This document shows positions 4,930 to 43,333 of a stretch of DNA of 43,333 nt, piece by piece. Position numbers and translations under genes: made by a program. Location of the stretch: IMG/VR virus record IMGVR_UViG_3300005663_000017, positions 1 through 43,333 of that record, one strand, 5' to 3'. How positions within the stretch are numbered: the stretch's first letter is position 1; every line of letters begins with the position of its first letter. Below the pieces are notes generated by a model that ran no database searches, was not told the DNA's origin, and worked only from the letters and a program-made list of their open reading frames with translations. Origin of the DNA: a virus.

Positions 4930-5096
4930 CCGACCGCAACCGTGAGGATTTTTACAAATGCCCCCACTGCGGCCAATTCGAGGCCGGGGAGTTTCACTAC
5001 AAGTATTGCTGGCTCACCGATGAACCCATCATTACCACGCAATACTGCCCTGTTTTGAAGCGGCGGGCGAAAAGGCAGGTGGAATTTGCTCTATGA
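4926..5096 (+). CDS. Tiny zinc-ribbon-like protein
   Basis: 56 residues starting MTDRNREDFYKCPHCGQFE. CPHCG and a later YCW/YCP give four cysteines that could bind zinc. The gene overlaps both neighbours by 4 bases. Its initiation region (AAGGAGCCCCG then ATGACCGACCGCAA) nearly repeats those of the genes at 34097 and 35582. Confidence 0.55.
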   Translation: MTDRNREDFYKCPHCGQFEAGEFHYKYCWLTDEPIITTQYCPVLKRRAKRQVEFAL

Positions 5097-5179
5097 GCAG
5101 CCTTGACCTATTCCTATGGTGCGTGTTTCTTTTTTCGCTGGAAGTGATGTTCGTTTTGTCGGTGTTGTTACTCGCATGA
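5093..5179 (+). CDS. 28-residue single-span membrane peptide
   Basis: ATG overlaps the previous stop (ATGA). After MSSLDL the peptide is almost wholly hydrophobic (FLWCVFLFSLEVMFVLSVLL), enough for one membrane span. A short AGGAGGG follows for the next gene. Real because of its coupling and composition, but the function is unknown. Confidence 0.4.
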   Translation: MSSLDLFLWCVFLFSLEVMFVLSVLLLA

Positions 5180-5334: not shown

Positions 5335-5444
5335 CTAGCTCCCTTTGGGTTTTAATAAGCGCTGTAGCTATCTTCGCCATGTGGTTCATCTTTAGTATAA
5401 CTGTGATATATTACGAAATGCGAGCCATAAAAATGAGGAAATAA
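5331..5444 (+). CDS. 37-residue membrane protein
   Basis: ATGA overlap with the previous gene. One transmembrane segment (about residues 5-26: LWVLISAVAIFAMWFIFSIT) is followed by a basic tail (RAIKMRK), which predicts N-out/C-in topology. Unknown function; one of many single-span peptides in this genome. Confidence 0.5.
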   Translation: MTSSLWVLISAVAIFAMWFIFSITVIYYEMRAIKMRK

Positions 5445-5447
5445 ACC

Positions 5448-5780
5448 ATGACGACAACCATATCACAGCTTGAGAAGAAAGCCCGGGGGAAGGCGTCGGC
5501 ATTGGGCCACGCCTTGGGCCAATTAACGAAGTGGACCTACAAAGTCGGCACCGAGTTCAATCCAACAGGCAAAAGGGAAAGGCCGCGCCAAGGCGGTTCG
5601 TTGTATTGCATAAAGTGCGACAAAGGTGTAGTGCTCCGGGTTTCCCCGAGGACAGGGTTCCCGTGGACCGAGGAACATATCGCGGGCTTCGGGGTTCGGG
5701 ATGAGCCCCCCGGCGGAGGCAACCCCGGAAGGCTCGGCAAGATGAACTGGTGGCAAGCCGAGTGTGGGCAGGGGGCATGA
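5448..5780 (+). CDS. Hypothetical protein with one CxxC
   Basis: 110 residues. Basic N-terminus, a central LYCIKCDKGVVLRV beta strand with CxxC, then a glycine/proline-rich stretch (EPPGGGNPGRLG). No known family recognised. The stop overlaps the HNH gene start (ATGA). Confidence 0.55.
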   Translation: MTTTISQLEKKARGKASALGHALGQLTKWTYKVGTEFNPTGKRERPRQGGSLYCIKCDKGVVLRVSPRTGFPWTEEHIAGFGVRDEPPGGGNPGRLGKMNWWQAECGQGA

Positions 5781-30601: not shown

Positions 30602-30640
30602 GGGCCAGCTAGAGCGCATCCTAGCTGGCCCTTTCTTTTT
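30602..30640 (+). terminator. Strong late rho-independent terminator
   Basis: GGGCCAGCTAG (30602-30612) pairs perfectly with CTAGCTGGCCC (30621-30631) around an 8-base loop, followed by TTTCTTTTT. It ends the long late transcript just before the next promoter. Confidence 0.93.
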
Positions 30641-38306: not shown

Positions 38307-38488
38307 TGGGAAAACGAACGATCTTTCTGGCTTGCTGTGGCGAAACCCTGATTGATCTTATGCATGAGCCGCCCGAAATGCTTGGCCCAGAAGGAGACAA
38401 AACCGTCTACTTTTCAGAGTGCTCCATTTGCTCTGACAGGATTACAATAGCCGTCAACTATGTAAAACCATCAGCCGATGTAACATAA
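38303..38488 (+). CDS. Small hypothetical protein with Cys motif
   Basis: 61 residues starting at the ATG at 38303 (GGAGGAGG upstream), overlapping the replication gene by 4 bases. ACCGE and CSICSD resemble a small metal site. Unknown. Confidence 0.5.
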   Translation: MMGKRTIFLACCGETLIDLMHEPPEMLGPEGDKTVYFSECSICSDRITIAVNYVKPSADVT

Positions 38489-38491
38489 CCC

Positions 38492-38577
38492 CACCTGATG
38501 ATAGCCCTACCATCAGACACCATCAGGTGATGATACTATTCTAAGGATAAGTACTAAGGCTAAGGTTAAGGTAAAAG
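38492..38577. other. Candidate replication origin (palindrome plus hexamer repeats)
   Basis: CACCTGATG (38492-38500) and CATCAGGTG (38521-38529) are a perfect 9-bp inverted repeat. It is followed by tandem hexamers: CTAAGG 38541, ATAAGT 38547, CTAAGG 38554, CTAAGG 38560, TTAAGG 38566, TAAAAG 38572. The segment is A/T-rich relative to its surroundings, non-coding, and follows the replication gene closely, as iteron-type phage origins do. Confidence 0.5.
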
Positions 38578-39106: not shown

Positions 39107-39412
39107 ATGGGAACAGAGCAGACAGAGAGAGTTCCAAGTAGAGCAGACCAAGTAGAGGCGAAGCGGTCTACGCTGACCGAAACCCACGGCGAAATTCTCC
39201 AAGTGGCTGATCGGTTGCTGGAAAAAGCCGGCGAGTTGGGTTGGAGGGTCCGGGGACATGGGGGCGGAGCACCGACAGACGAAAAAAGTGCCCCAACACC
39301 CGTCGAGCATCGGTTTCTCGATAGCGCCGAGGAAGCCTTGGGCGTTCTTATACAAGTTGAAGCGCGCCTAAATGAGTCGATTATTAACTTTGACAACTAC
39401 TTCGGGGCATAG
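39107..39412 (+). CDS. Hypothetical protein, last gene of rightward block
   Basis: 101 residues, AGGAGGG upstream. Two helical regions flank a Gly/Arg/Pro linker (RVRGHGGGAPTDEKSAPTP). The first (HGEILQVADRLLEKAGELGW) looks like a four-helix-bundle fragment. No family known. No terminator was found between its stop and the structured element at 39421. Confidence 0.55.
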   Translation: MGTEQTERVPSRADQVEAKRSTLTETHGEILQVADRLLEKAGELGWRVRGHGGGAPTDEKSAPTPVEHRFLDSAEEALGVLIQVEARLNESIINFDNYFGA

Positions 39413-39420
39413 GGCTTTTG

Positions 39421-39516
39421 GTGCGGGCGGCTAACCGGCGGGGCTGATGTGTCCTCGTTAGAACGGGACCGTGGGGCCCAGATACCTTCCGGTGGCGGTG
39501 GGCCCCTGACCCGCAC
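39421..39516. ncRNA. Cloverleaf-like structured element abutting the repeat array
   Basis: Closing stem GTGCGGG/CCCGCAC (39421-39427 with 39510-39516). Inside are CGG-CTAA-CCG (39428-39437), a 7-bp stem with one bulge around TAGA (39451-39469), and GGGGCCC/GGGCCCC (39473-39479 with 39500-39506), whose top on the minus strand is ACC-GGAA-GGT, a GNRA tetraloop. The 3' arm of the closing stem overlaps the first repeat unit. It is not a tRNA, because there is no T-loop and the arms differ. The GNRA loop mildly favours minus-strand transcription, placing it at the 3' end of a gene-array-structure transcript. Confidence 0.6.
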
Positions 39517-40015
39517 GCTCTGCTCTTATGGGTTACTCGTCCAGCTTGGCCCGCTCTAAGTATATGGGTTGCTCTAATACAATGGCACGCTCAACCTCAA
39601 CGGGTTGCTCCAATACAATGGCACGCTCGACCTTCATGGGTTGCTCTAGAGATATGGCCCGCTTCTAGGCTATGGGTTGCTCTCCTGATGTGGCCCGCTC
39701 TTCTTATTTGGATTGCTCTTTACTAATGGCTCGCTCCATTTCCCTGGGCTTCTCGACAGGGTTGGCTCGCTCTCTAAGTATGGGTTGCTCACTCAGCGCG
39801 GCTCGCTCATCGACGATGGGTTGCTCGTACACAATGGCCCGCTCTTCATTTTTGGTTTCCTCATCCAACGTGGCACGCTCTTTTCTCCTGGGTTCCTTCC
39901 ATGAAATGGCCCGCTCGTTTCGGTTGGGTTACTCTTACTACCTGGCTCGCTTCGAGGACATGGGTTGCTCCTTTCACTTGGCTCGCTTGCGGCTAATGGT
40001 TTACTCTTCCGCCGT
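39512..40015. repeat. 28-unit array: alternating 9-mers with variable 9-nt spacers, exact 18-bp period
   Basis: Fourteen units of type B (GGCNCGCTC, at 39512, 39548, ... 39980) alternate with fourteen of type A (GGGTTGCTC and variants, at 39530, 39566, ... 39998), always 18 bases apart. Each is followed by nine variable bases, 26 of 28 of which end in T. On the minus strand the unit reads GAGC(A/G)N(C/G)CCA plus eight variable bases. The spacers are nearly all different; taatacaat/caatacaat is the only close pair. The array starts inside the stop codon of the Transposase_20-like gene. It is not CRISPR (period and spacer far too short). Function unknown. Confidence 0.95.
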
Positions 40016-40675
40016 GGCGTGAACCTTGCCCAAATACTCCTCCGCGTAGGGGGGCCTTACCGTCAACCCCTCGATGGTCCTCCACTCAACGTAGAGGTCT
40101 TTGATGAACATCTTGACCATGTAGCGGATCGAGGCGTTGTGCCTATGACCATCCGACTTGCCCCACTCTTTGCTGATGAGCCGATGCTTGTAGTTATCGT
40201 AGAAGTCTCGATACGGCGAACTACACTTGAGGAAGCTCGGCCCCAACACTCCAAGCAACTTAGACTTGAGGAAAGAGTTGTAAGCCAACTTCTCGCCCTT
40301 CTTGCGCTTCTCGGCCGTCCCGTCCGAGTTGACCGCCAATCCTCCGAACCTCCACATCTTTGATACATTTTCAGCGATGGAAATATCATACTCTGCAAGG
40401 ATCACACCCCCCATTGTCGGGCCAATGCCCTTGACGCCCTTCAAGAAGCCGTCCCAAATCGGGAACGCTTTAAGCAATTTATTGACCGTTAGAAGCTGGG
40501 CACGTTCTAGGCCATTAAGCGCCTCCGCAATCCCAGCGATACGCTCCTGGTCCTTGTCGGAAAGATGTATCTCGGTGGCCCTTGCTTGTATCCGGCCCCC
40601 GGCCTGGAGCCTTAACCGCTGAAGGTCGTAAAACATCCGCACTTCAAATCTTAATTGCTCACGCAATGCGCTCAT
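40001..40675 (-). CDS. IS110-type Transposase_20-domain protein lacking the DEDD nuclease domain
   Basis: 224 residues from the ATG at 40675, overlapping the upstream stop (ATGA). Residues 1-75 are helical. Residues 80-92 (GVKGIGPTMGGVI) are a helix-hairpin-helix, followed by MWRFGGLAVNSDGTAEKRKK (107-126), LAYNSFLKSKLLGVL and SPYRDFYDNYKHRL, then RHNASIRYMVKMFIKDLY. This is the order seen in the C-terminal domain of IS110 transposases, which carries a catalytic serine; Ser117 is the candidate here. The RuvC-like DEDD domain of true IS110 enzymes is absent. The stop codon lies in the first repeat unit, so gene and array are probably cotranscribed. Confidence 0.75.
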   Translation of the reverse strand: MSALREQLRFEVRMFYDLQRLRLQAGGRIQARATEIHLSDKDQERIAGIAEALNGLERAQLLTVNKLLKAFPIWDGFLKGVKGIGPTMGGVILAEYDISIAENVSKMWRFGGLAVNSDGTAEKRKKGEKLAYNSFLKSKLLGVLGPSFLKCSSPYRDFYDNYKHRLISKEWGKSDGHRHNASIRYMVKMFIKDLYVEWRTIEGLTVRPPYAEEYLGKVHATAEE

Positions 40676-42563: not shown

Positions 42564-42983
42564 TCATCCTCCTCTAAAGATTACAATCGCCGACGGGAAC
42601 GGGGCGGAGTTCTTGTGACCGTCGAACTTGAGCCGACCCTTGATAAACCTGATTTCGTCGGCCCTCATAACGTAGTCGTGCCACCAGCGCGTGTCGGTCC
42701 TTGAGGGTATGAGGCAGACGACGGTGGCCCCGTCCAAGGCTGACTCGTAAGCCTTCTTCATCCAGCGGCCAATTTCTCGGCCGTATGGGGGATTAAGCCA
42801 ACAGGTTTCCCCCAGCCACAGAAAAGTCAACCCGTCCTCATCTTTAGAATAGAAGCGCCGGCATTTTGCATTTTCGGCCGTGGCGCATACGTCCACCGTG
42901 AAGCCGAACTCCGCATCTAGTTCGTCAAATACGCCTTGCGGCGTGGCCCAGTCGAGGCGTTGGCTGGAGAAATGAACCTTCAT
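42564..42983 (-). CDS. DNA N6-adenine methyltransferase (phage Dam type)
   Basis: 139 residues from the ATG at 42983 with AGGAGGAGG upstream; the frame is open further to 43058. DWATPQGVFDELDAEFGFTV and DVCATAENAKCRRFYSKDED form the N-terminal motif, WLNPPYGR (62-69) the catalytic NPPY, and APFPSAIVIFRGG the end. These define the phage Dam family (PF05869 by recollection). It methylates adenine, probably for protection from restriction. It is the second DNA methyltransferase of this phage. Confidence 0.88.
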   Translation of the reverse strand: MKVHFSSQRLDWATPQGVFDELDAEFGFTVDVCATAENAKCRRFYSKDEDGLTFLWLGETCWLNPPYGREIGRWMKKAYESALDGATVVCLIPSRTDTRWWHDYVMRADEIRFIKGRLKFDGHKNSAPFPSAIVIFRGG

Positions 42984-43054
42984 GGCCTCCTCCTCTGTTC
43001 GGGTTGATTGCTCCTGCGGGGCCACCACCGGAGCGATGGCCCCTGGCCGAGCCG

Positions 43055-43333
43055 TCAAGCCGTGGCCAGTTCCTCGGCCTTAGCTTGGGCCTTCTTGAGC
43101 GTGGAAAACTCTTGGAATTCTCCCGCCGTTTCAATGTCTCCCTCGGGGGTCGCCTCTCGAATGGTGAAAAGCCGAGGGTAGGTGTTCCCCGTCAAGCAAC
43201 CGCTCTGCTTCTCGGAGGTCACAAAGAAGCGGCCACCATAAACCCCTGGATAAACCCTGGACCGGAAAAAGTCCATATTTTCAGGGCTGAACCAACGGCC
43301 CCCGACCTTCTCATGGGCCCTTTGAATTGCTCC
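43055..43333 (-). CDS. Junction-spanning hypothetical protein, 3' part
   Basis: Remainder of the gene whose start is at base 143 after circularisation. An internal ATG at 43276 exists, but the frame stays open upstream to the RBS-preceded ATG at 143, so the longer product is preferred. The protein is a soluble, mixed alpha/beta polypeptide ending in an alanine/lysine-rich helix (STLKKAQAKAEELATA). The stop overlaps a possible TTG start for the adenine methyltransferase frame. Function unknown. Confidence 0.75.
   Translation of the reverse strand, partial: GAIQRAHEKVGGRWFSPENMDFFRSRVYPGVYGGRFFVTSEKQSGCLTGNTYPRLFTIREATPEGDIETAGEFQEFSTLKKAQAKAEELATA
43221..43333. repeat. Right copy of exact 113-bp terminal direct repeat
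   Basis: Identical to bases 1-113. Removing one copy leaves 43,220 bp of unique sequence. Joining the copies restores an uninterrupted leftward gene of about 103 codons, from an ATG at 143 to a stop at 43055. Confidence 0.95.

Follow-up and report, generated by a model that had tools for sequence, protein, structure and literature searches.

A GC-rich branched element between convergent genes of an uncultivated phage: a candidate 3'-terminal structure of a TIGR precursor RNA

What is the role of a compact, GC-rich, foldable segment that separates two convergent transcription units in a phage genome? The segment lies in a 43,333-base uncultivated virus record (analysed over its whole length and referred to here as the window), which encodes a terminase, a major head protein, a DNA methyltransferase, and DnaD-like replication genes. 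The element is intergenic, with a GC content of 69%, and fills the entire gap between the convergent units. A first-pass annotation had described it as a cloverleaf-like structure that might cap, process, or anchor the transcript of the adjoining repeat array. Its placement between convergent units and exactly at the array boundary is confirmed: the gap of 108 nt runs from the + strand stop at 39412 to the minus-strand array, whose truncated edge repeat begins at 39520 (Table 1). With a probability that we put at roughly 0.55, the element forms the structured 3' tail of a TIGR precursor RNA at this convergent gene junction. On the + strand side, the last open reading frame yielded no match in a search of protein families, and the two neighboring + strand proteins had no homologue in IMG/VR. 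Repeats of the CCATCAG/CTGATGG type occur in both orientations at 38470–38540, just after the DnaD-like replication gene, and are a candidate replication origin.

Table 1. Features at and around the element (positions in the window; sequence evidence)
Feature	Position	Strand	Basis
Last ORF of the convergent + strand unit, stop 8 nt before the element	39107..39412	+	ORF list
GC-rich branched element, putative 3' end of the TIGR array transcript	39421..39516	-	sequence, folds
Closing-stem 3' arm CCCGCAC; also complementary to edge-repeat GCGGG	39421..39427	-	perfect partner 39510-39516
Bulged hairpin GTCC-CGT/ACG-GGAC, + strand sequence GTCCTCGTTAGAACGGGAC	39451..39469	-	sequence
Robust core: perfect 8-bp hairpin GGGGCCCA/TGGGCCCC enclosing an ACC-GGAA-GGU stem	39473..39506	-	inverted repeat 8/8
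3'-truncated last edge repeat GAGCG	39516..39520	-	in phase with array
TIGR dual-repeat array, 14 units of 36 nt	39516..40024	-	unit table, 18-bp steps, 36-bp period
TasA, solo Nop-domain protein, 224 aa	40001..40675	-	phmmer, PHROG

Which kind of array does the element adjoin? The protein encoded upstream of the array matches TasR (9mty_A, E 2.4e-22) and TasH (21kl_A, E 2.2e-10) in phmmer searches as well as phrog_4285 (E 1.9e-38), and is 41–47% identical to other array-linked Tas proteins. Its 224 aa, counted from the ATG at 40675, include no nuclease domain, and we therefore assign it to TasA. The array lies directly downstream of tasA and is read on the minus strand, each unit consisting of an edge repeat (GAGCGNGCCA), an 8-nt spacer A, a loop repeat (GAGYAACCCA), and an 8-nt spacer B. 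It starts with a 5'-truncated edge, GTTCACGCCA, at 40024, overlapping the end of tasA, and finishes with a 3'-truncated edge, GAGCGTGCGG, at 39520. The locus thus combines a Nop-domain Tas protein with two alternating repeats of 8–12 nt, short spacers, and a 36-nt unit next to the tas gene; judged by this sequence organization, the array is a TIGR dual-repeat array as defined by Faure et al. (2025, PMC12045711) and a further instance of that recently described kind. By analogy with the known TIGR-Tas family, it would be transcribed into processed guide RNAs.

Several other features of this region deserve mention. In two adjacent units at 39592–39628, the A spacers (TTGTATTG and TTGTATTA) are almost the same, and the B spacers preceding them are also alike (TGAAGGTC and TTGAGGTT); a unit may have been duplicated recently, or both guides may address variants of one target. 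The antisense strand of the array (39528–40022, +) contains two long open frames of 46 and 116 aa, which stay open because the 18-bp period preserves the frame and are not likely to be genes. The minus-strand region that holds tasA also encodes a Dam-type DNA adenine methyltransferase (42564–43058; Pfam Dam, E 3.2e-31).

Is the element a leader or a tail of the array transcript? To place it among its relatives, we drew on eighty-odd Tas loci collected from IMG/VR and GTDB genomes, the closest of which encode Tas proteins less than 50% identical to this one across most of their length. Practically all of these loci share the 36-bp period, and in practically all of them CCA boxes are spaced 18 bp apart on the Tas strand, a pattern that the opposite strand almost never shows. 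The minus strand is therefore taken as the sense strand, which makes the element a 3' tail rather than a leader.

What does the element fold into? All four stems of the first-pass annotation are present in the sequence, although its 7-bp GC stem turned out to have 8 bp. An inverted-repeat search recovered the closing stem, GTGCGGG/CCCGCAC, with 7 of 7 positions paired (39421–39427 with 39510–39516), and the GC stem with 8 of 8 (39473–39480 with 39499–39506). The latter forms one of 14 perfect hairpins of at least 8 bp with a loop of 3–20 nt in 43 kb. Within it, the sequence contains the ACC-GGAA-GGU motif, an inner 3-bp stem that on the minus strand closes a GNRA loop, exactly as had been read, and a 3-bp CGG/CCG hairpin is present elsewhere in the element. 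The overlap of the closing stem with the array, likewise noted earlier, is real but short: the stem's minus-strand 5' arm starts within the truncated edge repeat, GAGCG(TGC).

Does this structure exceed what base composition would produce? The main rival to a 3' tail is that the element is a GC-rich intergenic spacer which folds by virtue of its composition and holds, apart from chance hairpins, no selected RNA structure—a reading that we regard as unlikely and that nevertheless accounts for several observations. The folding energy is below that of dinucleotide shuffles by z = −1.98 (RNA, +), −2.25 (RNA, −), and −2.55 (DNA). An energy excess over shuffled controls, proposed earlier as a check, is hence present on both strands and modest, at about 2 SDs, and a complete lack of excess is not clearly what the data give. 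The element's raw + strand minimum free energy is the lowest among 1,802 sampled + strand windows, but z scores as good as its own occur in 4–9% of the 96-nt windows of the phage genome; much of its stability therefore reflects GC content. These z values of merely −2 to −2.5 are what a composition-driven spacer would yield, as are the instability of the closing stem in context and the lack of a conserved homologue of the element. Against such a spacer stands the joint geometry—a nested closing helix of at least 7 bp spanning at least 75 nt, a perfect local helix of at least 8 bp, and one further helix—which arose in 0.05% of 4,000 shuffles and has no second site in the window, a figure to be read with caution since the criterion was designed post hoc, once the element was known. 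Also hard to square with it is the location of the 8-bp hairpin, one of so few in the genome, where relatives often have hairpins.

Pairing probabilities in genomic context separate a robust core from less stable parts. The 8-bp hairpin pairs with a probability of about 0.87 or more in all contexts tested and near 0.99 in most of them. The bulged hairpin reaches 0.7–1.0 in short and medium contexts and falls to about 0.36 when the whole array is included, while the closing stem ranges from 0.01–0.18 in several flanking contexts to 0.7–0.95 in others. The CGG hairpin is barely populated (about 0.05–0.1 for the element alone; 0.1 or less in context).

How do TIGR arrays end in other genomes? Most relatives share a truncated AGCG element at the end of the array. 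Of 50 distinct array ends with a recognizable truncated edge, most lead directly into a ribosome-binding site, that of the next gene, and because this gene begins there, most relatives lack a strong array-end hairpin; the others carry a hairpin beginning at or inside the truncated edge, often an intrinsic terminator. Hairpins with z below −2 were found at 22% of the 50 array ends vs. 8% of 400 random windows from the same loci (Fisher P = 0.004). Textbook terminators with a U-tract follow the array in L043 (GAGCGAAAACAGGGA..TCCCTGTTTTTT), L056 (GAGCGGAGCGGGGG..CCCCCGCTTTTTTT), and L002 (GAGCGAAATATAAAGGGGC..GCCTCTTTATATTTTT). U-less ends exist as well: L061 has a perfect stem of which the truncated edge is part, and L011 has an 8-bp hairpin. 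These array-end hairpins agree with Faure et al. (2025, PMC12045711), who state that a truncated edge and then a predicted terminator close TIGR arrays.

The same collection contains other neighbors of TIGR arrays. A tRNA gene lies just after the array in L013 (1984–2068; called Met cat by ARAGORN), and tRNA-like sequences were seen by eye after the arrays of L016 (approximately 5045–5125) and L050 (approximately 5440–5515). ParB-like genes, also recognized by eye, directly precede tasA in L002 (3308–3983) and L003 (3247–3957), matching the already described arrangement of tasParB operons; none was recognized beside tasA of this phage.

Could the element be a terminator, and if so for which unit? 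The stable GC hairpin of a classical intrinsic terminator is there; the U-tract after the stem is absent on both strands, and the element does not appear in a terminator scan of the window. The same phage has a canonical intrinsic terminator on the + strand at 30602–30631, with an 11-bp stem and a TTTCTTTTTG tail, and given this contrast we do not call the element an intrinsic terminator. It might instead act in both directions or mainly for the + strand unit ending at 39412 rather than for the array, an improbable alternative in our judgment. The stop codon does lie only 8 nt before the element, the + strand fold is equally stable, and the closing stem forms with a probability of about 0.95 behind the + strand gene; however, the + strand has no U-tract, and a truncated edge joined to a hairpin is the pattern of the TIGR side.

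Is the element conserved as a structure? A single-sequence covariance model, whose reach is limited by its one sequence, recovered only the element's own window among 84 sources, so that the search for like elements beside arrays, suggested with the original description, came back empty. Nothing in Rfam matched at the gathering threshold or at E 10, and DNA similarity searches of phages and plasmids were empty or at chance level. The closing-stem DNA pattern had at least 120 unrelated matches in IMG/VR; no Tas gene was present in 80 loci fetched from among them, where one borderline covariance-model match (E 9.9) was taken as chance. The GC-rich array ends of L012, L016, L054, and L003 look similarly branched by eye, and homology to them received no support from the covariance model. 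With a modest energy excess, a closing stem that is not robust in context, and no homologue from searches of the 84 Tas loci, of phages and plasmids, and of Rfam, the idea of a special conserved cloverleaf is not supported, and the case for a precise four-armed fold is mixed. What survives of the proposed role in the array transcript is the capping of its 3' end, the most plausible function.

The CCCGC arm of the closing stem has a second potential partner. On the minus strand it competes for pairing with edge-repeat GCGGG at 39550–39554 (P = 0.24–0.82, depending on context) and 39838–39842 (P = 0.48), as would be expected of an accessory TIGR RNA whose arm serves as a tracrRNA-like anti-repeat that guides processing. 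Such a function is very improbable: the pairing extends over merely 5–6 bp with a subset of edges (the GCGGG type), relatives have no counterpart, and no accessory RNA was found by the authors who described TIGR-Tas (Faure et al. 2025, PMC12045711). Equally remote is a structured RNA of a known kind, tRNA-like or otherwise, or a site that forms a DNA cruciform, such as an origin or attachment site, for despite the 7-bp closing stem, the cloverleaf outline, and the tRNA gene after the array of L013, ARAGORN finds no tRNA, the T-arm is absent, the arms come in the wrong order, Rfam has no match even at E 10, and no integrase is among the genes scanned.

How, then, might the element work as a 3' tail? 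The minus-strand transcript would cover tasA and the 14 array units, pass the truncated edge GAGCG, and continue into the very stable GC hairpin (39473–39506) and the second, bulged hairpin, both of which the 7-bp closing stem may sometimes enclose. The structure may set or protect the 3' end of the precursor, by stopping or stalling the polymerase or by blocking a 3' exonuclease, and so separate the precursor from the convergent + strand unit. Cleavage within the truncated edge would then free the last tigRNA from the hairpin tail. A barrier or stabilizer at the 3' end probably describes such an element better than classical intrinsic termination. This reading is supported because the element spans the gap between convergent units, where 3' ends must form, and because the hairpins of relatives start at or inside the truncated edge and are enriched at array ends. 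Counted against it are the absent U-tract, the z score of about −2, the many relatives without a strong hairpin, and the lack of a homologue of the structure. A bolder version, which we consider a long shot, is that a multibranched, U-less element fused to the truncated edge is a dedicated 3'-end or processing element that replaces a terminator and possibly alternates between being closed and being paired to edge repeats.

These results identify the phage array as a TIGR-TasA guide array, and the roughly 50 array ends describe how such arrays finish: the last repeat is a truncated edge, and next comes either a gene start or a hairpin. The U-less array-end hairpins among them are testable objects for 3'-end formation and processing of TIGR precursors.

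How does the locus compare with known systems? Like a Rho-independent terminator, the element offers a GC-rich hairpin where convergent units meet and a transcript would end; unlike one, it has no U run after the hairpin on either strand. The closest match is the TIGR-Tas system of the TasA type (PMC12045711), with which the locus shares a solo Nop protein beside an array of 36-bp period. In both, two repeats alternate and are separated by two short spacers, the outermost edge repeats are truncated (5' at the start of the array, 3' at its end), and structured sequence follows the 3' truncated edge. The locus differs in having 10-nt repeats and 8-nt spacers by our own division (9 nt by that of the paper), a box D of GAG rather than UG, and a terminal hairpin region that is branched, lacks a U-tract, and faces a convergent gene.
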